Of a stretch of DNA of 32,428 nucleotides, positions 119 through 28,297 are shown piece by piece. Each line of letters opens with the position of its first letter. The first letter of the stretch is position 1. Source of the DNA: a virus. The translations under genes and the position numbers were made by a program. Where the stretch lies: positions 1 to 32,428 of IMG/VR virus record IMGVR_UViG_3300025087_000232; one strand, given 5' to 3'. Under the pieces are notes generated by a model. That model made no database searches, was not told where the DNA came from, and saw only the letters and a list, made by a program, of their open reading frames with translations.

Positions 119-700
119 TTAAAATCTATCCTTATCTCCAAAAAAATCCTTGACCTTTATTTTAAACATATCGCCAGCGTTCGTATGCCAGACAATTCCT
201 TCAATTCCGCAATCCTTTCCGTATTTACTTTTCTGTGCGGGCAACCATTCTTTTAATCCCTCATAATCAATCGGAACATTTTCAAATACTGGGGCTTGAT
301 TTAGAGAAAAGAAAACTATCCGATTGTTTTCAAGATTAAGAGAGTTTCCTTGTATGTTCGTTCCTACTAGCTCGCCCGACCATTCCCCATCAGAAAGATT
401 TGAAAAATCGGTATTTTTTATTCCGTCAAAAATCCATTTGTCTTCTGGCGAATATTCATCGGCATCCTTATACCAAGGTTCTTCTATGCCTTTTTGTTTC
501 TGTATCTTATCGGGATTTCTCCGCTTTTCTGTTCTTACACAAAGATGATTTCGGAGCGTGATTCTTACATTCATTCCATCTAGTTTTTCAGTAGCAACTG
601 CCCCAATGAGTAAATCTGGCGAAAAACCATCTGTGTATTTATCAACCACTCTCCTATTTCCATTCCAGTCCCTATCAAAAATAGTTTTTATTTTTTTCAT
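119..700 (-). CDS. RNA ligase family nucleotidyltransferase
   Basis: A 193-residue protein with the motifs of ATP-dependent RNA/DNA ligases. Motif I is EKLDG (residues 38-42) with Lys39 as the expected adenylylated residue. A motif III-like GELVG lies near residue 110, motif IV EGIVWH near residue 168 and motif V FKIKVKD near residue 180. It is about the length of a bare nucleotidyltransferase domain, with no obvious C-terminal extra domain, so it matches compact phage RNA ligases better than full DNA ligases. Known role of the family: sealing or repairing RNA, in phages often tRNA repair after host anticodon-nuclease attack. The RNA substrate here is inferred. No polynucleotide kinase partner is seen nearby. 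The start follows a weak GAAGGG-type ribosome site about 20 bases upstream. Confidence 0.8.
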   Translation of the reverse strand: MKKIKTIFDRDWNGNRRVVDKYTDGFSPDLLIGAVATEKLDGMNVRITLRNHLCVRTEKRRNPDKIQKQKGIEEPWYKDADEYSPEDKWIFDGIKNTDFSNLSDGEWSGELVGTNIQGNSLNLENNRIVFFSLNQAPVFENVPIDYEGLKEWLPAQKSKYGKDCGIEGIVWHTNAGDMFKIKVKDFFGDKDRF

Positions 701-772
701 AGTTAGTTTACTTTTACCCTTCGACCTTTTTTACCGCCTCAATGAATAAGTCAGCAGTTAATTTATTGGGAG

Positions 773-1153
773 TTAAAATCTATTCTCGTCCGGCACTCTT
801 GCTCCGTTTAAATATCTTTTCCAGCAAGCTGGGAACTGGCTAGCCAAATTAACTTTATTTCGGATCATGCGCCTCAATATATTTTCTTGAAGCATACTAT
901 CAAACCTATAATCCCAAGCGTTATCCGACTCTTTTAATAAACCATATAAAACCCCAAAACTTTTCAATGTCCCTATTTTGAATTGTAGGCGTCCCCAAGA
1001 GGCGGTGCCATCGCTATCCTTAGGATTTATCGCCCTCGAGTTATGACGAGACTCACAATAGGAGAGAAAATCCACGATCTGATTCTCTTTTTCAATATCT
1101 CCGGAAGCAAACGATATAAGCGGAATAAGTAAAGCCAATAACGCATATTTCAT
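773..1153 (-). CDS. secreted lysozyme-like / lytic transglycosylase-like protein
   Basis: A 126-residue protein beginning with a signal peptide (hydrophobic residues 3-17, ASG-type cleavage region). It continues into a lysozyme-like core: CESRHNSRAINPKDSDGT around residues 33-50 with Glu34 as the presumed catalytic acid, then SWGRLQFK, the usual GLxQF-like motif of the transglycosylase fold. Short secreted proteins of this form are common in Patescibacteria genomes and cut the glycan strands of peptidoglycan. It could be a phage lysis or entry enzyme, or a host-derived wall-remodelling protein. It runs leftward, divergent from the small-gene cassette at 1278, and its leader contains a terminator-like hairpin (1185-1199). 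Confidence 0.7.
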   Translation of the reverse strand: MKYALLALLIPLISFASGDIEKENQIVDFLSYCESRHNSRAINPKDSDGTASWGRLQFKIGTLKSFGVLYGLLKESDNAWDYRFDSMLQENILRRMIRNKVNLASQFPACWKRYLNGARVPDENRF

Positions 1154-1277: not shown

Positions 1278-1442
1278 ATGCCTAACGGCATTAAGTTCCT
1301 TTGCGTTTGCGGAGCTGAAATGAAGCCGGATAAGGATAATTACATGATGGAATGGGCTATCCTTATCAAGCTCACCTGCGTTAAATGCCAAAAGCAAAAG
1401 GATGTGATGATTAAAGCGGTGTACCTTAACAGATGGAGGTAG
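1278..1442 (+). CDS. small zinc-ribbon-like protein (54 aa)
   Basis: An open frame of 54 codons starting at ATG 1278 after a strong GAGGAGGG ribosome site. It has paired cysteines CVC (residues 9-11) and CVKC (34-37), a plausible four-Cys zinc site. The final codons contain GGAGG, which is the ribosome site for the next gene (ATG 1445), so the two are translationally coupled. No family is recognised. It opens the cassette that includes Pup, and its base composition (G+C-richer, well-formed ribosome site) matches that cassette rather than the flanking genes. Confidence 0.6.
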   Translation: MPNGIKFLCVCGAEMKPDKDNYMMEWAILIKLTCVKCQKQKDVMIKAVYLNRWR

Positions 1443-1444
1443 CC

Positions 1445-1696
1445 ATGGCCGGAGCATACGAATACGGTAGGCGGCCTAAACTCCATCGAATAATGTGCTC
1501 ATGTTGTTACGCTTCTGTTTCAGTCCCCATTTCGAGGAAATTCCTTTGCGATTCCTGTTTCCACGGAGAAGGCAATTATGCCCAAGACTTCCCCACCGCT
1601 AAGGAGGTGCGTCAAGTAACGGAAGCCATCAATAAACTCTGCGGCAAAGCTAGGAGGTTCACCGATGGCGCGTACACAGGAAAGGAAACGGCATGA
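1445..1696 (+). CDS. small zinc-finger-like protein (83 aa)
   Basis: The frame opens at ATG 1433, but ATG 1445 is preferred because it lies 5 bases after GGAGG. The protein has CSCC near residues 18-21 and CDSC near 35-38, giving a likely four-Cys zinc-binding knuckle, then a more polar tail. The function is unknown; it may bind nucleic acid or mediate protein contacts. Its 3' end overlaps the Pup start by 32 bases, and it carries the AGGAGGT site of Pup, so its translation is probably linked to Pup. Confidence 0.6.
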   Translation: MAGAYEYGRRPKLHRIMCSCCYASVSVPISRKFLCDSCFHGEGNYAQDFPTAKEVRQVTEAINKLCGKARRFTDGAYTGKETA

Positions 1697-1874
1697 TAGC
1701 CGCAAAGATGAAATCGTGGAAGAAGTGGTTGCGGACAAAGCACGCACGCAGGCTGTATCTGCGAAGGGAAAGGAGGTACGGGAGGCGGCAGACAAATTCA
1801 TGGATGAGATTGACGTGATTCTGAAAGAAAACGTGGAATTGGTAGGAAAATATATCCAGAAGGGAGGTGAATAG
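1665..1874 (+). CDS. pup: prokaryotic ubiquitin-like protein (Pup) homolog, GGE terminus
   Basis: A 69-residue, highly charged protein that ends QKGGE. The C-terminal half matches the diagnostic Pup pattern: a helical DEIDVILKEN segment (47-56) followed by a short spacer, YIQKGGE (63-69). Mycobacterial Pup has DEIDDVLEEN and YVQKGGQ in the same arrangement and is 64 residues long. Known role of Pup: its C-terminal Glu is joined by PafA to lysines of target proteins, marking them for the Mpa-proteasome or other fates. A genomically encoded Glu needs no prior deamidation by Dop. The N-terminal third is Arg/Lys/Glu-rich and probably disordered, as in Pup. The ribosome site AGGAGGT (1652-1658) fits ATG 1665. 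No ligase, Dop or proteasome gene lies in this window, so conjugation would rely on host enzymes or on genes elsewhere. The cassette context suggests an early or accessory function. Confidence 0.9.
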   Translation: MARTQERKRHDSRKDEIVEEVVADKARTQAVSAKGKEVREAADKFMDEIDVILKENVELVGKYIQKGGE

Positions 1875-2068
1875 TGGAGTTCCTTAAGTGTCCTTCTTGT
1901 AAGTCCGAAGGTATGCCTACTTTCGAGGAGCAAGAAACTGTCGTGTGGTGGTGTCAATTCTGCGCCGAGTTCTTTATTCAAACGAGAGAGGGAATACGTT
2001 TTCTCTTTCTCCATGCGGAGGGGCGATGTATAAGTGCGACTTCTGTGATTCTTGGTTCGGGTCTTTGA
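1874..2068 (+). CDS. small zinc-ribbon protein, GTG start
   Basis: GTG 1874 overlaps the last base of the Pup stop codon (TAGTG). It is served by the GGAGGTGA formed by the final Gly-Gly-Glu codons of Pup, giving tight coupling. The protein has CPSC (residues 6-9) and CQFC (near 27-30), a clear two-knuckle zinc ribbon. The last ~20 residues look less protein-like and overlap a second start at 2026 in another frame, so a frame break near 2000-2020 or a genuine overlap are both possible. The function is unknown. Confidence 0.55.
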   Translation: MEFLKCPSCKSEGMPTFEEQETVVWWCQFCAEFFIQTREGIRFLFLHAEGRCISATSVILGSGL

Positions 2069-2190
2069 CGAGAAAACTTCTTCACATAGAAAAGAAACAC
2101 GGAAAGGAAAAGGAGGAGAAAGATGGAAAGGAAGCTGACGAGGCTCGCTTTTGGCGTGATATCAATATTCGGGTTGCTTCTGGCCGCTAG
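2026..2190 (+). CDS. single C2H2 zinc-finger protein (54 aa)
   Basis: It starts at ATG 2026, 4 bases after GGAGG. The N-terminal 25 residues form a textbook C2H2 finger: Cys4-x2-Cys7-x12-His20-x4-His25, with an aromatic (Trp10-Phe11) and leucines at core positions. A very charged Lys/Glu tail follows. C2H2 fingers are uncommon in bacteria and phages, and single-finger proteins usually bind DNA or protein. It overlaps the upstream zinc-ribbon gene by 43 bases and the next gene by 68 bases. The overlap with 2123-2422 is long, so the C-terminal ~20 residues may matter little. Confidence 0.5.
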   Translation: MYKCDFCDSWFGSLTRKLLHIEKKHGKEKEEKDGKEADEARFWRDINIRVASGR

Positions 2191-2422
2191 ACTCGTTTTC
2201 GGCCAAGAGGTCGAGGCCACTCGCACGCTTCACTGGTCGCAAGTGGCAGAAACTGGCCTCAAGGCTCATTTCAACGCCATGATGGTAGACCTGAAGGCCG
2301 TAGGTTGTCTGGCCGCTCGCGGAGAAGCCCACACTAGCGAGAACAACCACCAAGAAGTGGTACTCAAGCTCAAATGCACGCTTTTCGAGGGCACTAATGC
2401 CATGCCCGAAATTCGCAAATAG
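2123..2422 (+). CDS. small exported protein of unknown function
   Basis: A 99-residue protein. A strong GGAGGAG ribosome site precedes ATG 2123. Residues 8-26 are hydrophobic and end VFG|QEV, a good signal-peptide cleavage candidate, so a mature exported domain of about 70 residues with two Cys is predicted. No family is recognised. It is the last member of the higher-G+C cassette and is followed by an imperfect inverted repeat (2425-2478). It could be a periplasmic or surface factor, or a superinfection-exclusion protein, but nothing in the sequence decides this. Confidence 0.55.
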   Translation: MERKLTRLAFGVISIFGLLLAARLVFGQEVEATRTLHWSQVAETGLKAHFNAMMVDLKAVGCLAARGEAHTSENNHQEVVLKLKCTLFEGTNAMPEIRK

Positions 2423-2424
2423 CT

Positions 2425-2478
2425 CTTTGTTTCGCGGACGCTCCGATTTTTAGAGAAAACCTCGGAGCATCCACAAAG
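2425..2478. repeat. inverted repeat closing the Pup cassette
   Basis: GGACGCTCCGA (2436-2446) pairs with TCGGAGCATCC (2462-2472, one G-T wobble). An outer CTTTGT/ACAAAG stem (2425-2430, 2473-2478) is separated by a one-sided bulge. No T-run follows, so it is not a canonical terminator. It may protect the 3' end of the cassette mRNA or mark a cassette boundary, since base composition drops right after it. Confidence 0.5.
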
Positions 2479-2494
2479 CCAAGACAAGAAAGAC

Positions 2495-2827: not shown

Positions 2828-2924
2828 ATGCCATTTACAAAGTGGAAGAAAATATACTACGAAACAAGTCAGAGCTTATTACGCCACGGGGGGATTTAAA
2901 CGAGCGCCGAGAAAAAAGAAATGA
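2828..2924 (+). pseudogene. short basic ORF with a likely indel in a G6 tract
   Basis: From ATG 2828 a 23-codon frame runs into TAA (2897-2899) just after a run of six G (2888-2893). With one G fewer, the frame continues through a basic tail (FKRAPRKKK) to TGA 2922-2924. That stop overlaps the next start as ATGA, exactly the coupling used elsewhere here. This suggests a small basic protein broken by a homopolymer indel, either real or a sequencing error. Confidence 0.35.
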
Positions 2925-4096
2925 AAGATAGAAATATAGATGAGATAAGACCTTATCCTAAAAATGCCAAAAAACATCCGCTTTATCAAATCAAGCAAGT
3001 AGCGGCTAGTATTAAGGAATTTGGTTTTAATCAACCAATCGTTGTAGATAAGAAAGGCACGATCATAGTCGGTCATGCTCGGTATGAAGCCGCTAAAATG
3101 CTCAAATTAAAGAGCGTGCCTGTTTTAGAGGTTTCCCTTTCAGAAGAAAAGGCTAACGCTTACCGCCTCGCAGATAATAAACTTAACGAATCCGATTGGA
3201 ATATGAATTTAGTTATTGAAGAACTGAAAGGATTAGATACCGAAATGATCGATTTGACGGGATTTGACAGAGATTTGCGAATAGCAGAGGGCTGGAACCC
3301 TTTAAAAACCTATAATGATGATATAGGAGATGGTATTAATGAATTAGTAGGATACAGTTTATCTTCTTTCTGGAAAGATATAAAAAATGAAAATTCCGAA
3401 TTTTTTGATTATTGGATTGAATTACCAGTGCAAGAAAAACAGAATCTAGTTAGACAGAAATACAGTAGAACTAATCTAGAAGAAATAAGGCGTATAGTAA
3501 AAACTTATATGCGGGCAGGCGATTTCTTTCTTGAAAATTGTTGTGGGTGGTCTACTTTCGCTTCATCTGCTGTGATACATGGATTTTCAGGTATTGGAGT
3601 TGATATATGGGATACTGCAATTACACATGGAAAAAAACAGTATGAAAAGTTAAAAGGACATTTTAATAAAATAGGTAATTATCAAATAATAAAAGCTAAT
3701 GGAATGGATTTGCCATTTGATGATGAAAAATTTGATTTTTTATATTGTAATCCTCCCTTTTTAGATGAAGAAAAATACAGTAAAGAAGATCATGAAATAG
3801 GTAATAAGAATATTGATATATTTGGTAAGAATTTTATAAAATTACAAAAAGAGAATTTTCGAGTACTAAAAAATGATAGATTGTGTGTGATTACTATAAA
3901 TGATAAACGGGAAAAAGGTTTTTTAATCCCCGTACAAAAATATATTATAGAATGGTCAGAAATGGTAGGATTTAAATTATGGGATTTTGTGGTAGCAGAA
4001 GTTTTATCTCAAAAGATAAGATTAAGAAGAAAAGATTATGTTTTAAAACGTACTGTAAAATGCCATGAATATATAATAATTTTCAAAAAACCTTAA
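2921..4096 (+). CDS. ParB-like domain fused to DNA methyltransferase
   Basis: A 391-residue two-domain protein. Residues 1-125 are a ParB/Srx-type N-terminal domain: IRPYPKNAKKH, FNQPIVVDK and GHARYEAAK (51-59, the ParB box-II-like signature), then LADNKLNE. Residues ~185-391 are a Rossmann methyltransferase with a motif I-like region around 202-228 (ENCCGWSTFAS then GIGVDIW) and catalytic NPPF (277-280), typical of N6-adenine/N4-cytosine enzymes. ParB-methylase fusions are known in phages and mobile elements and may modify phage DNA against restriction. Base composition becomes more AT-rich from about position 3300, at the domain junction. The linker 126-184 is not recognised. Confidence 0.8.
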   Translation: MKDRNIDEIRPYPKNAKKHPLYQIKQVAASIKEFGFNQPIVVDKKGTIIVGHARYEAAKMLKLKSVPVLEVSLSEEKANAYRLADNKLNESDWNMNLVIEELKGLDTEMIDLTGFDRDLRIAEGWNPLKTYNDDIGDGINELVGYSLSSFWKDIKNENSEFFDYWIELPVQEKQNLVRQKYSRTNLEEIRRIVKTYMRAGDFFLENCCGWSTFASSAVIHGFSGIGVDIWDTAITHGKKQYEKLKGHFNKIGNYQIIKANGMDLPFDDEKFDFLYCNPPFLDEEKYSKEDHEIGNKNIDIFGKNFIKLQKENFRVLKNDRLCVITINDKREKGFLIPVQKYIIEWSEMVGFKLWDFVVAEVLSQKIRLRRKDYVLKRTVKCHEYIIIFKKP

Positions 4097-4771: not shown

Positions 4772-5917
4772 GATTCGCGCCGTTCAAGGAGGCACTGAGC
4801 TTCTAAAACTATCTCCATTCTTCTTTACCTGATAAACGCCGCCCAATCGGATAAAACTCCCACCGTAACCAGCGTAGTTTCTGAATCAGTCCCGCATATA
4901 AAGACCGGAGCATTGCGGGATTTTAAGAATATCATGAAAGCCCATAATTACTGGAATGATAATAGATGGCATGAAACAGATCGTATTTATACTTTTGAAA
5001 CCGGAAGTCAGATGGAGTTCTTCGGAGCTGATCCATCAAACGCCGATAAACTCCGAGGAAGTCGCCGTGATAGACTCTTTCTGAATGAGGCCAATAACGT
5101 AACCCTCACCGCTTTCGATGAACTTGAAGTCCGCACTAAAGAATATATCTTCTTAGACTGGAATCCAGTAAGTGAATTTTGGTTCTATACTGATGTTCTT
5201 GGAAAGCGCGATGACGTGGAACATATAGTGCTTAACTTTCAAGACAATGAAGCTATACCGCCTGAAATATTAAAATCAATAGAACAACGCAAAAATCGTG
5301 AGGGTTGGTATAAGGTTTTTGGCCTCGGCCTCCTTGGGGAGGTGGAAGGCAGGATTTACACAGGTTGGAAAATTATAGATAAAATTCCACATGAGGCTCG
5401 TCTCGAACGCTACGGCCTAGACTTCGGTTATACTAACGATCCTACTGCTATAATCGCTCTCTATTACTGGAATGGAAGTTATATCTTAGATGAAATAACC
5501 TATCAAAAAGGCCTTGCAAATAAGGAAATAGCGGATATTTTAAAGAATCTTCCTCCAAAACTCGTGATCGCGGATTCTGCCGAACCCAAAAGCATAGATG
5601 AAATTAAAAGTTACGGTATCTCAATTCTCCCAACTCATAAAGGTAAGGATTCTAAGAAATACGGAATCAATGTCGTGCAAGATCAACGTGTGAGTATGAC
5701 TAAGCAAAGCGTCAATCTCATTAAAGAATATCGCAATTACTTGTGGGTTATTGACAAGAATGGTAAAATGCTGAACGAAGCCGAAGATGGCAACGATCAT
5801 GCCCTTGACGCGATAAGATATGCGATATGTTCACTGACTCCGATCATAACGAGGAAAGAAATATTATCACAGATGCCGATAATACCGGAAAGATCGCAGA
5901 TAAATCCGGCAGTTTGA
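4722..5917 (+). CDS. terL: terminase large subunit, broken by a frameshift in Walker A
   Basis: The packaging motor ATPase/nuclease. The 5' part opens at ATG 4722 (MYQPTTALRK...) inside the small-terminase gene and reads RAVQGGT up to 4796. The reading then must shift by one base to continue ASKTISILLYLINAAQ (from 4799), so the P-loop GGTxASKT is split by an apparent single-base loss. Adding one base gives a normal 398-residue TerL. Downstream are a Walker B-like RLFLNEAN, then the RNase H-like nuclease with DFGYTNDP, IADSAEP and EDGNDHALDA acidic residues. The uninterrupted frame alone begins only at a TTG (4913) and lacks the P-loop. The cause is either a sequencing/assembly error or an inactivating mutation. 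No good slippery heptamer is seen. Confidence 0.85.
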
Positions 5918-6012: not shown

Positions 6013-6227
6013 TGAAAACTGAAATTTTTAAACGAGAAACCCTGAAAGATCGAATGCGAAAGGATTTGATTGAAACTCTCGCTACTGGTCATTCCCACGC
6101 CGAGGTAGGGGACTTCTTTAAATGTCATTCTTGCGCCGAAAAGGTTATGGCATGGAAAGCTAAAAAAGCCAAGATGGGTTTGGCTAATCCAAGCGATTAT
6201 CTCAAATGGAATAAGACTAAAAAATGA
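6012..6227 (+). CDS. hypothetical protein (71 aa)
   Basis: ATG 6012 overlaps the stop of the previous gene. The protein is charged and helical with a central CHSCAEKVMAWKAKKAKMG. The CxxC could be half of a zinc site or a redox pair. It ends with the ATGA overlap to the SET-domain gene. No family is recognised; the context is the terminase-portal interval, where small regulatory or head-completion proteins are common. Confidence 0.5.
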   Translation: MKTEIFKRETLKDRMRKDLIETLATGHSHAEVGDFFKCHSCAEKVMAWKAKKAKMGLANPSDYLKWNKTKK

Positions 6228-6661
6228 CAGGTTTAACGAGATCGGAGCAGATAATGGAACTTTCTAGCACTGTCAAATGCAAGTTAGCTCCTTCAAATAT
6301 TCATGGCATTGGGGTATTTGCCATCAGGGATATTAAAAAAGGTGAGAAATTATATGTCCAACCAGCTCTATGGACAAGACCAGCGTGGTTCACTCTCACT
6401 CTCGCGGCTCTCAAAGAAATTCCTCCAGAAGTGCGAGAAATCATTATGGGTCGCTGGCCGCAGGTGGTGAATGGAAGATATTTTATGTCCCCTAACTTTG
6501 ATCAAAGACTTTTGGCTTTTATGAACCATTCAGACATTCCTAATTATGACGAGAAAGACGATACCGCCCTGCGAGATATAAAAGCCGGTGAGGAGATTTT
6601 TGAAAATTATAAAAATATGTTAAATTGGGAAAAAGCATTCCCTTGGCTTACGTTAAGATGA
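6224..6661 (+). CDS. SET-domain protein (putative lysine methyltransferase)
   Basis: A 145-residue protein matching the compact SET fold: HGIGVFAIRDIKKGE (27-41, SAM-binding GxG with the following beta strand), LLAFMNHSDIPNY (97-107, the NHSxxPN signature that binds SAM and forms the pseudoknot) and IKAGEEIFENY (119-129, with the terminal Tyr expected at the active site). Known SET enzymes transfer methyl groups to protein lysines. Bacterial and phage members exist, but substrates are mostly unknown. ATG 6224 overlaps the upstream stop (ATGA), and the gene ends with a second ATGA. A second start at 6254 is possible. It sits in the packaging operon between terL and portal. Confidence 0.8.
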   Translation: MTGLTRSEQIMELSSTVKCKLAPSNIHGIGVFAIRDIKKGEKLYVQPALWTRPAWFTLTLAALKEIPPEVREIIMGRWPQVVNGRYFMSPNFDQRLLAFMNHSDIPNYDEKDDTALRDIKAGEEIFENYKNMLNWEKAFPWLTLR

Positions 6662-11399: not shown

Positions 11400-11442
11400 G
11401 CCATTTCGCTTGATTCTTAGAAAGTAAGAATCGAAAAGTGGC
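11400..11442 (+). promoter_or_regulatory. hairpin enclosing the capsid-gene start codon
   Basis: GATTCTTA (11412-11419) pairs perfectly with TAAGAATC (11425-11432) around GAAAG. After a small bulge the stem extends through TTT/AAA to GCCA (11400-11403)/TGGC (11439-11442). The GTG start (11438-11440) lies within the outer stem and there is no Shine-Dalgarno site, so translation or mRNA stability of the capsid gene may be controlled by this fold. Confidence 0.5.
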
Positions 11443-12295
11443 GAATACAATTACTTACGAAACTCTTTACGAGGATGTACTCCAAGATAGATTGGATCAT
11501 CCTCAAACATGGAAAGAAGTTTGCGACGTTATTTACACTAACGCGCGGGCAATTTCTACTTCGCGAATGTCCAATCCAACAGTTACTACCGTAACTAAGG
11601 GAACGGGATTTATAATCGCGGACGTTACTGAAACTGCGGAAACTCTTACTCTTGATACACCCAGAGATCTGGGGATATTCGTTGATTGGGGCGATCTAGC
11701 TCAATCTCCTTGGACAAAACCGATGGAGATTTTTGACCGGATTGGGGCTTTACTCAATGAATTCATAGAAGCAAATCTTCTCGCCCAGCACGCTTCTTGG
11801 ACTGACTTCGATAACGCGTCAATCGGCGGAGGCGCGGGGAACATCACAGTTTCCGCTTCCAACATTGACGATATTATCCGAGGCATAAAGAGGGAAATTC
11901 GTGAAGGCAATGGTCAGTTCTTCATGAATCAAAATGGCTCGTTCTCCGTATGGCGAGCGGCTGATTTTGAAATTCTTGAAGCGTTCGTACAGGCTAATGG
12001 ATTTAATTCGGCGGATGCCGCGTTAAAAGCGGGTACAGTAGAAGGACTTAGATATATGGGTATGGATCATTTTTGGTCAAATGATCATACTGCTAATCAT
12101 CTTCTCGCTGGAGTAAAGAAAATCCAAAGACTCGGTGTGTTGAAAGCCGTTTACGGGAAAGCACATACGATTGAATTTCCTGCTGGAAGTTCAAACAACA
12201 ATCTTTCTGGTGTGGCCTATTACAGCCGAGTGGATATCGGTCATCTCACTCCGACAGCTCATGTAGGGTTGGTCTTCGATGTGAATGTGGCATAA
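11438..12295 (+). CDS. major capsid protein (probable)
   Basis: A 285-residue protein directly after the scaffold and before the adaptor, starting at GTG 11438 (MANTITYETLYEDV...). The N-terminal helix, the middle helices with aromatic and Asp residues, and the beta-rich C-terminus ending HVGLVFDVNVA suit an HK97-type shell protein. Its length is typical. Perfect hairpins flank the gene on both sides, consistent with a highly expressed, separately controlled message. The fold assignment is inferred. Confidence 0.7.
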   Translation: MANTITYETLYEDVLQDRLDHPQTWKEVCDVIYTNARAISTSRMSNPTVTTVTKGTGFIIADVTETAETLTLDTPRDLGIFVDWGDLAQSPWTKPMEIFDRIGALLNEFIEANLLAQHASWTDFDNASIGGGAGNITVSASNIDDIIRGIKREIREGNGQFFMNQNGSFSVWRAADFEILEAFVQANGFNSADAALKAGTVEGLRYMGMDHFWSNDHTANHLLAGVKKIQRLGVLKAVYGKAHTIEFPAGSSNNNLSGVAYYSRVDIGHLTPTAHVGLVFDVNVA

Positions 12296-27088: not shown

Positions 27089-27408
27089 CAACAGAAAATA
27101 AAAATAACGCGGATAATTTCAAAGAATGGATATTTAAGATTGATCCTAAGTGGTTAATTCTTAATTCTTTCGGGATTTTGGCCGCTATCGTGATTGGGTT
27201 TCTTTATTATAGGACGATTAACGCTCAATTAAATGAAAGTAATGCCGGTATCGTGGCGAAAGTTGAGGCGCATGAACAAAATTCTTCACAAGCCGCGAAA
27301 GAAGATCGGGAAGTAAAAGAACGCTTAGTTAGGGCAATGGACGAAAATACCAGAGCAGTGAACAATTTATATAATTTATGGAAGGTGAATGGGACTTCGG
27401 CTAGATAA
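27085..27408 (+). CDS. membrane protein with coiled coil (107 aa)
   Basis: ATG 27085 with upstream GGAGGAG is preferred to a TTG at 27058. It has one transmembrane segment (~26-44, LNSFGILAAIVIGFLYY) and then a charged coiled coil (~50-100). Membrane-anchored coiled coils next to lysis enzymes resemble i-spanin/Rz-like proteins by shape only. Its end overlaps the peptidase start by 20 bases. Confidence 0.5.
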   Translation: MTTENKNNADNFKEWIFKIDPKWLILNSFGILAAIVIGFLYYRTINAQLNESNAGIVAKVEAHEQNSSQAAKEDREVKERLVRAMDENTRAVNNLYNLWKVNGTSAR

Positions 27409-28297
27409 TATGGATGAAATTATTGAAGGTGAAAGAAATTTTGGGTTAAAACCAACTCCGCCGGATGAGCGGGATTTCAAACTGGGAGCAATCCTGAAAC
27501 TTCCAAAACCTGAAACCTTGCCTGTGGAGTTTATTTTCGATGTCCCTAAGGTGGAAAATCAATATAATACGGATTTTTGTACCGCCTTTGCCACGGGTTA
27601 TATGTCTGAAATTCAGGAAGGGATAGATATCGAACCAGCCTGGACGTTTGCCATGAGTAAGGTGATCTCGGATGACGTAGCCGAATGGGGTCAAGATATT
27701 CGGACAGCCATGAAAACTCATATAAAGTACGGAGCTTTGAATAGAGAAAACTCCCCATTGACGTTAGACGAAAAAAACGGGGATATATTGCGGGAAATAG
27801 ATAACTGGCCGGATAATATAGAGTTTTGGGTTGAAAAAGCCAAACCTTATAAGAAAAAGAGTTTTTTTAAGATAACCGGCCACTACGATCATTTTGACAA
27901 TATTAGGGCTTCTATTTATGAATTTAGGGATTTAAAAAGGGCTGTTGGGCTGGGCGTGGATTGGGCGTGGAATTTATATGAACCCATGATACCCGATCTG
28001 GTTACTAATGGAACCGGCCACATGATTTGCGTCGTGGGCTGGAAAACGGTAGACAATGAGCCTTATTTAGTTATTCAAAATAGTTACGGTAAAGAAGTCG
28101 GAGATGAGGGCAAGCATTATTTTCCCAGAAGGGTGATAAATACCATGGTTGAGAAATATGGAGCTTATATGTTTGTTGATTTGCCCAAAGAACAAGCCAA
28201 ATACTACCTAGATAATGGTATTTTACTTACGGATAACTGGGTTACGGGACTTTGGAAGGCTTTGAGGGTGTTTTTTGGGGGATTGGCGGGGAAATAG
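27389..28297 (+). CDS. papain-like (C1) cysteine peptidase
   Basis: A 302-residue protein with the C1A catalytic layout: NQYNTDFCTAFATG (Gln58 for the oxyanion hole, Cys64 nucleophile), GHMICVVGWK (His211) and IQNSYGKEVGDEGKHYF (Asn231, usual NSWG position). The region before residue 45 (PPDERDFKLG) is the short, propeptide-like lead common to bacterial C1 peptidases. No clear signal peptide; the C-terminal ~20 residues are mildly hydrophobic. It could cleave host surface or virion proteins. The final 56 bases overlap the convergent methyltransferase gene. Confidence 0.85.
   Translation: MGLRLDNMDEIIEGERNFGLKPTPPDERDFKLGAILKLPKPETLPVEFIFDVPKVENQYNTDFCTAFATGYMSEIQEGIDIEPAWTFAMSKVISDDVAEWGQDIRTAMKTHIKYGALNRENSPLTLDEKNGDILREIDNWPDNIEFWVEKAKPYKKKSFFKITGHYDHFDNIRASIYEFRDLKRAVGLGVDWAWNLYEPMIPDLVTNGTGHMICVVGWKTVDNEPYLVIQNSYGKEVGDEGKHYFPRRVINTMVEKYGAYMFVDLPKEQAKYYLDNGILLTDNWVTGLWKALRVFFGGLAGK

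Follow-up and report, generated by a model that had tools for sequence, protein, structure and literature searches.

In some bacteria proteins are tagged with Pup, itself a small protein, and Pup is known as a tag produced by the cell for its own purposes. What, then, might a Pup gene be doing in a virus that brings neither the enzyme that joins the tag to its targets nor the proteasome, and how did such a gene come to be there? The question is raised by a viral record of 32,428 bases, here called the window and analysed over its whole length, in which a frame of 69 codons ahead of the virion genes reads as Pup.

The window as a tailed phage

With terminase, capsid, and tail-type genes on one record, the window is a tailed phage, as the preliminary description of this DNA had supposed in calling the Pup gene phage-borne. 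It lacks Ns, an end repeat, tRNA, and Rfam matches, and PADLOC returned nothing on it. The landmarks outside the immediate surroundings of the Pup gene are the following:

119..1153, minus strand: left flank, comprising an RNA ligase gene (119-700) and a gene for a small protein (773-1153), without Shine-Dalgarno sites
2921..4096, plus strand: ParB-like/methyltransferase gene, whose ParB part also lies before the terminase in a sister phage
4802..5917, plus strand: terminase large subunit
11438..12295, plus strand: major capsid protein, the query that found 27 sister phage contigs

Related capsid proteins in these 27 other viral contigs reach about 75% identity, and the sister contigs and the window have the genes from the terminase to the tail region in common. 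Soon after the terminase the window encodes a SET-domain protein of the lysine methyltransferase type (6224-6661), with relatives in 21 of the related loci, and further on a papain-family cysteine protease (27389-28297), here in a phage. The Pup gene does precede the terminase, as first described, but the terminase match starts about 3 kb downstream of it and not 2.5 kb. The record encodes a Pup-family protein without a ligase, deamidase, or proteasome subunit of its own: profile searches of the window for the PafA/Dop family (PF03136) and for 20S subunits (PF00227) were negative, in keeping with the earlier reading that the contig has no ligase, and no deamidase was found on it.

Identity of the Pup gene

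The gene and its translation signal are as follows, the conceptual translation being MARTQERKRHDSRKDEIVEEVVADKARTQAVSAKGKEVREAADKFMDEIDVILKENVELVGKYIQKGGE:

1652..1658, plus strand: AGGAGGT ribosome-binding site, 6 bases 5' of the ATG, Shine-Dalgarno score 7
1665..1874, plus strand: Pup-family protein of 69 amino acids, ending KYIQKGGE, the ligation-ready Glu form

The Pfam Pup model (PF05639) matches residues 5-69 at E 1.6e-11 and 45.3 bits, above its curated cut-off of 27 bits, and in a phmmer search of the PDB every match below E 0.01 is a Pup chain. The protein ends QKGGE, the C-terminal Gly-Gly-Glu/Gln arrangement by which Pup is recognized; aligned with 19 other Pups, it retains I49, L53, N56, Q65, G67, and G68 together with the DEIDxxL..N helix and the hydrophobic pattern of the C-terminal half. 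At the level of sequence, membership of the Pup family is established, and what the preliminary description had seen here, a 69-residue Pup with an AGGAGGT ribosome site and a Glu already in place, holds in each particular, including under the family profile by which it was to be checked. Like the cellular Pups of Mycobacterium, Streptomyces, and Corynebacterium (PF05639), the window Pup has a DEID helix, a GG(E/Q) end, the conserved positions L, N, and Q, and a charged N-terminal part of about the same length. Unlike them, it lies in a phage, is unaccompanied by PafA, Dop, or 20S genes, has one residue fewer in the linker between its helices, and has 9 lysines where cellular Pups average about 3.

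The linker may matter for classification. The NCBIfam model TIGR03687 gives the window Pup 22.6 bits against a cut-off of 41.45, in an alignment that reaches the end of the protein, and the likely reason for the low score is the deletion of one inter-helix residue, next to which F is replaced by L in the alignment with the other 19. Judged from its sequence, the protein is a divergent member of the Pup family and not a proven Pup equivalog. It is the most divergent of the phage Pups scored and sits on a long branch in an unresolved tree of 79 Pups; since it also scores about equally with a phage-Pup profile (44.9 bits) and a cellular-Pup profile (47.7 bits), its source cannot be named. An AlphaFold model predicts a single long helix at modest confidence (mean pLDDT 68), unsurprising for the disordered Pup, and does not bear on the assignment either way. 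A scan of viral contigs for close relatives gave no match, and PHROGs returned no Pup family for this protein or for five other phage Pups tested. UBact is likewise a short disordered modifier with a Glu-type end, but the window protein ends in the QKGGE of Pup, and UBact is not among its Pfam and NCBIfam matches up to E 10, in libraries that may or may not include a UBact model. An antisense frame at 1520-2014 was set aside because it lacks the Shine-Dalgarno site that the plus-strand genes have.

A foreign cassette

The Pup gene belongs to a compact cassette of six small genes, the remaining parts of which are these:

1278..1442, plus strand: cassette gene 1, small zinc-ribbon-like protein with paired cysteines (CxC and CxxC), preceded by a strong Shine-Dalgarno site
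1445..1696, plus strand: cassette gene 2, small Cys-rich protein overlapping the Pup start, no relative in viral contigs
1874..2068, plus strand: cassette gene 4, small protein resembling a zinc ribbon, whose GTG start overlaps the stop codon of Pup
2026..2190, plus strand: cassette gene 5, small C2H2-like protein, GGAGG upstream (by eye), weak Pfam match
2123..2422, plus strand: cassette gene 6, 99 amino acids, N-terminal segment hydrophobic and signal-like, without detected relatives
2423..2484, plus strand: stable hairpin at the cassette end (2415-2500 folded, z -3.6), possible transcript end

Scans of viral contigs for two cassette proteins other than Pup gave no relatives. The cassette had been called unlike its surroundings, and translation signals and codon usage bear this out. 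Shine-Dalgarno matches are 6-7 bases long in the five cassette genes scored, whereas the 30 scored genes outside the cassette have a mean of 2.3 (p 2e-4); among large genes a clear site is present in 8% in the window and in 0-23% in sister phages. TTA accounts for 0% of cassette leucines against 34% elsewhere in the window, and AAG for 54% of lysines against 25%. Because strong Shine-Dalgarno sites are rare in the rest of this phage and in its relatives, the 1.2-kb cassette is foreign.

Foreign DNA can enter a genome or merely an assembly. If the cassette derives from a different organism or phage and became attached to the window phage in assembly only, then its distinct Shine-Dalgarno sites, its want of TTA, and its absence from the corresponding place in sister phages would all be explained, and to that extent the foreign translation signals count against the reading favoured below, conjugation by host PafA. 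Such a chimera, however, requires two false joins within 1.2 kb, as both flanks are phage-like DNA of the non-Shine-Dalgarno type; the record has no N, the cassette boundaries fall in intergenic DNA, and cassette tetranucleotides are no more extreme than those of other parts of this mosaic phage genome. The left flank, moreover, has phage credentials of its own. Its RNA ligase is of the RLIG1 type, and relatives up to 76% identical occur in 11 viral contigs, some of them in phages having other window genes too, and in one contig (L143) the relative adjoins a relative of the window's methyltransferase. With phage-type DNA on both sides and such kin for the RNA ligase, recent acquisition is favoured over a double false join, and we consider a chimera, the junction of two organisms between 1250 and 2450 envisaged in the preliminary description, unlikely. 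A scan with the other left-flank gene (773-1153) found a single contig with nothing else in common with the window.

Two further observations concern the cassette margins. Direct and inverted repeats of 16 and 15 nt, 87-88% alike, lie just outside it (1171-1186/2509-2524 and 1240-1254/2535-2549); they may be insertion traces or chance, short AT-rich matches of this kind being common by chance. Ahead of the minus-strand left-flank genes there is a promoter-like site, TTGAAA-16-TATATT (1232-1185, minus strand), and directly after it a hairpin with a T run that resembles a terminator, an attenuator-like arrangement.

Ligase-less Pups across phages

Is the window Pup an oddity of one contig? A scan of IMG/VR, using an alignment of known and new Pups and the patterns ID..L..EN and Q.GG(E/Q), found 51 contigs with Pup, which, with the window and the Streptomyces phage Dagobah included, collapse at 90% identity to 37 distinct Pups. 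A frame or partial frame ending in GG(E/Q) is present at all 51 loci and none failed the frame filter, a constancy partly built in, as one of the two search patterns and the filter required that end. None of the 51 records, nor the window or Dagobah, carries PafA or Dop, and no 20S subunit was found on the phage Pup records searched. Where a Pup occurs in a phage record with virion genes and without PafA/Dop we speak of a ligase-less phage Pup, and the window, with its terminase, its capsid, its Pup, and no PF03136 match, belongs to this group. Terminase or portal genes are present on 29 of the listed Pup records, in 17 of these within 4 kb of Pup and on the same strand, and where the two are near each other Pup is mostly upstream, as in the window; many of these Pups lie directly upstream of the terminase/portal module.

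In the 34 phage Pups that could be compared without gaps there is no variation at L47, N50, F54, Q60, or the GG pair (Mtb numbering), and in 42 distinct cellular Pups little or none; the search patterns impose some of this uniformity on the phage set. Of the phage Pups 21 end in E and 16 in Q, a division like that of the cellular ones (26 and 16). Eight other phage Pups, seven from IMG/VR and that of Dagobah, score 42.9-68.5 bits with TIGR03687, all above the cut-off of 41.45 under which the window Pup falls. Lysines are more numerous in phage Pups, at 5.5 per protein against 3.1 in cellular Pups (p 2e-6, base composition not corrected for). Representative IMG/VR cases (L158 in the 174-kb record G028, L163, L186) share with the window the GG(E/Q) end and the missing ligase; where terminase kin tell, as in L044, the host looks actinobacterial.

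Among 50,697 phage records in INPHARED the sole genuine Pup found is that of Dagobah, a cultured phage (QMP84414.1, MT711977), which resembles the window Pup in being phage-borne, ligase-less, and GGE-ended, and differs in lying in an actinophage replication region and in ending VQVGGE. The record annotation names it as Pup, and the paper on the phage does not mention it (PMC7650747). A second candidate, MT835496.1 (L127, 'Bacteriophage sp.', fecal, 159 kb), was rejected because its Pup lies between two PF03136 genes; it has the look of an actinobacterial chromosome fragment deposited as phage. Nothing relevant on phage Pups was found in the open-access literature, so a paper may exist, and a 2025 review on bacterial proteasomes leaves phages unmentioned. 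Ligase-less phage Pups constitute a widespread and apparently undiscussed class. Since they recur in many phages, the window Pup is not a one-off.

This recurrence bears on the reading in which the cassette was picked up recently as mere cargo, functionless in the window phage and not yet adapted or lost. The foreign composition and translation signals fit it, as do the divergence of this Pup, its linker deletion, and its score below the TIGR03687 threshold; yet frame, ribosome site, and C-terminal end are all intact, and many other phages keep Pup at a similar place. We therefore think a functionless passenger improbable.

The host and its tagging enzyme

The preliminary description took the host to be a member of the Patescibacteria. 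That host is plausible and was not confirmed: a capsid profile gave no hit among 380 genomes of what is inferred to be that phylum, in a search that for want of a positive control carries little weight, and no named phage related to the window was found. The phylum itself came into view through Pup. One relative was found in a genome of about 1.0 Mb (G091), most genomes sampled from its phylum measuring 0.5-1.4 Mb, and there the Pup gene is directly followed by a Pup-ligase gene (L053:6001-7734). In a second genome (G403) Pup lies near EF-Tu (L219:8061-8258) and the ligase gene 24 kb away (L220:6088-7494), and the ribosomal operon, which extends from S5 to L15, lacks L30. Such an operon is a mark of Patescibacteria, and from the small genomes and the missing L30 we infer that G091 and G403 belong to that phylum.

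Both of its Pups end GGE, but the system is scarce, with the PafA family (PF03136) in 5 and Pup in 2 of the 380 genomes, so that a GGE tag could find a ligase in a few such hosts, but most have none. No 20S subunit was detectable in G091, the one Pup genome tested. Redirection of host proteins to the proteasome, as first suggested, is weakened by both results, and proteasomal degradation in a Patescibacteria-type host is neither supported nor expected. A narrower proposal is that the Glu-form Pup of a Patescibacteria phage works with a minimal host Pup-PafA pair lacking a proteasome, pupylation of host or virion proteins then being non-degradative; we hold this to be doubtful.

How a phage-borne Pup might act

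In cellular pupylation PafA uses ATP to activate the Glu at the C terminus of Pup and links it to a lysine; Dop converts Gln ends by deamidation and also takes the tag off again (PMC3511204). The best explanation of the window, in which our confidence is about evenly balanced, is that host PafA conjugates a ready-made GGE tag supplied by the phage, from a gene recently acquired in a foreign cassette. During infection, host PafA would join the C-terminal Glu of the phage Pup to lysines of host or phage proteins; Dop would not be needed, as the end is already Glu, and the phage would raise the supply of Pup and shift the choice of tagged proteins. Where the host has a proteasome, these would be marked for degradation, and where it has none the tag would be a modification only. 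The gene would have arrived recently, with the other five of its cassette, from an organism or phage in which Shine-Dalgarno sites are in use. That the GG(E/Q) end is retained speaks for ligation over binding alone, and the want of enzymes of its own argues that the phage Pup depends on the host. The divergence of the window Pup and the rarity of PafA in the presumed host phylum weaken this explanation.

Its main rival is that the phage Pup acts as a decoy, occupying PafA, and in hosts that have them Dop or the Mpa coiled coil, and thereby blocking host pupylation or proteasomal degradation and sparing phage proteins. Free Pups without a ligase on phages would suit such a role, as would the loss of the lysine that precedes GG, replaced in 7 of the 37 phage Pups and in none of 42 cellular ones, and the altered linkers of three phage Pups, one residue shorter in the window and longer in two others (L195, L196). 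For a pure binding decoy, however, the ligatable GG(E/Q) end would be superfluous, and the N-terminal part is nearly of cellular length (38.9 residues against 41.6), so that the threading tail is kept. We regard the decoy as a possible but less probable role than conjugation by host PafA.

The broader finding is the recurrence in phages of Pup without its ligase; the literature found discusses no phage Pup, and that of Dagobah is annotated only. The phage probably either borrows or jams the tagging enzyme of its host. If phages commonly bring the tag but not the enzyme, pupylation would be a point of contact between phage and host, and perhaps a point of conflict.
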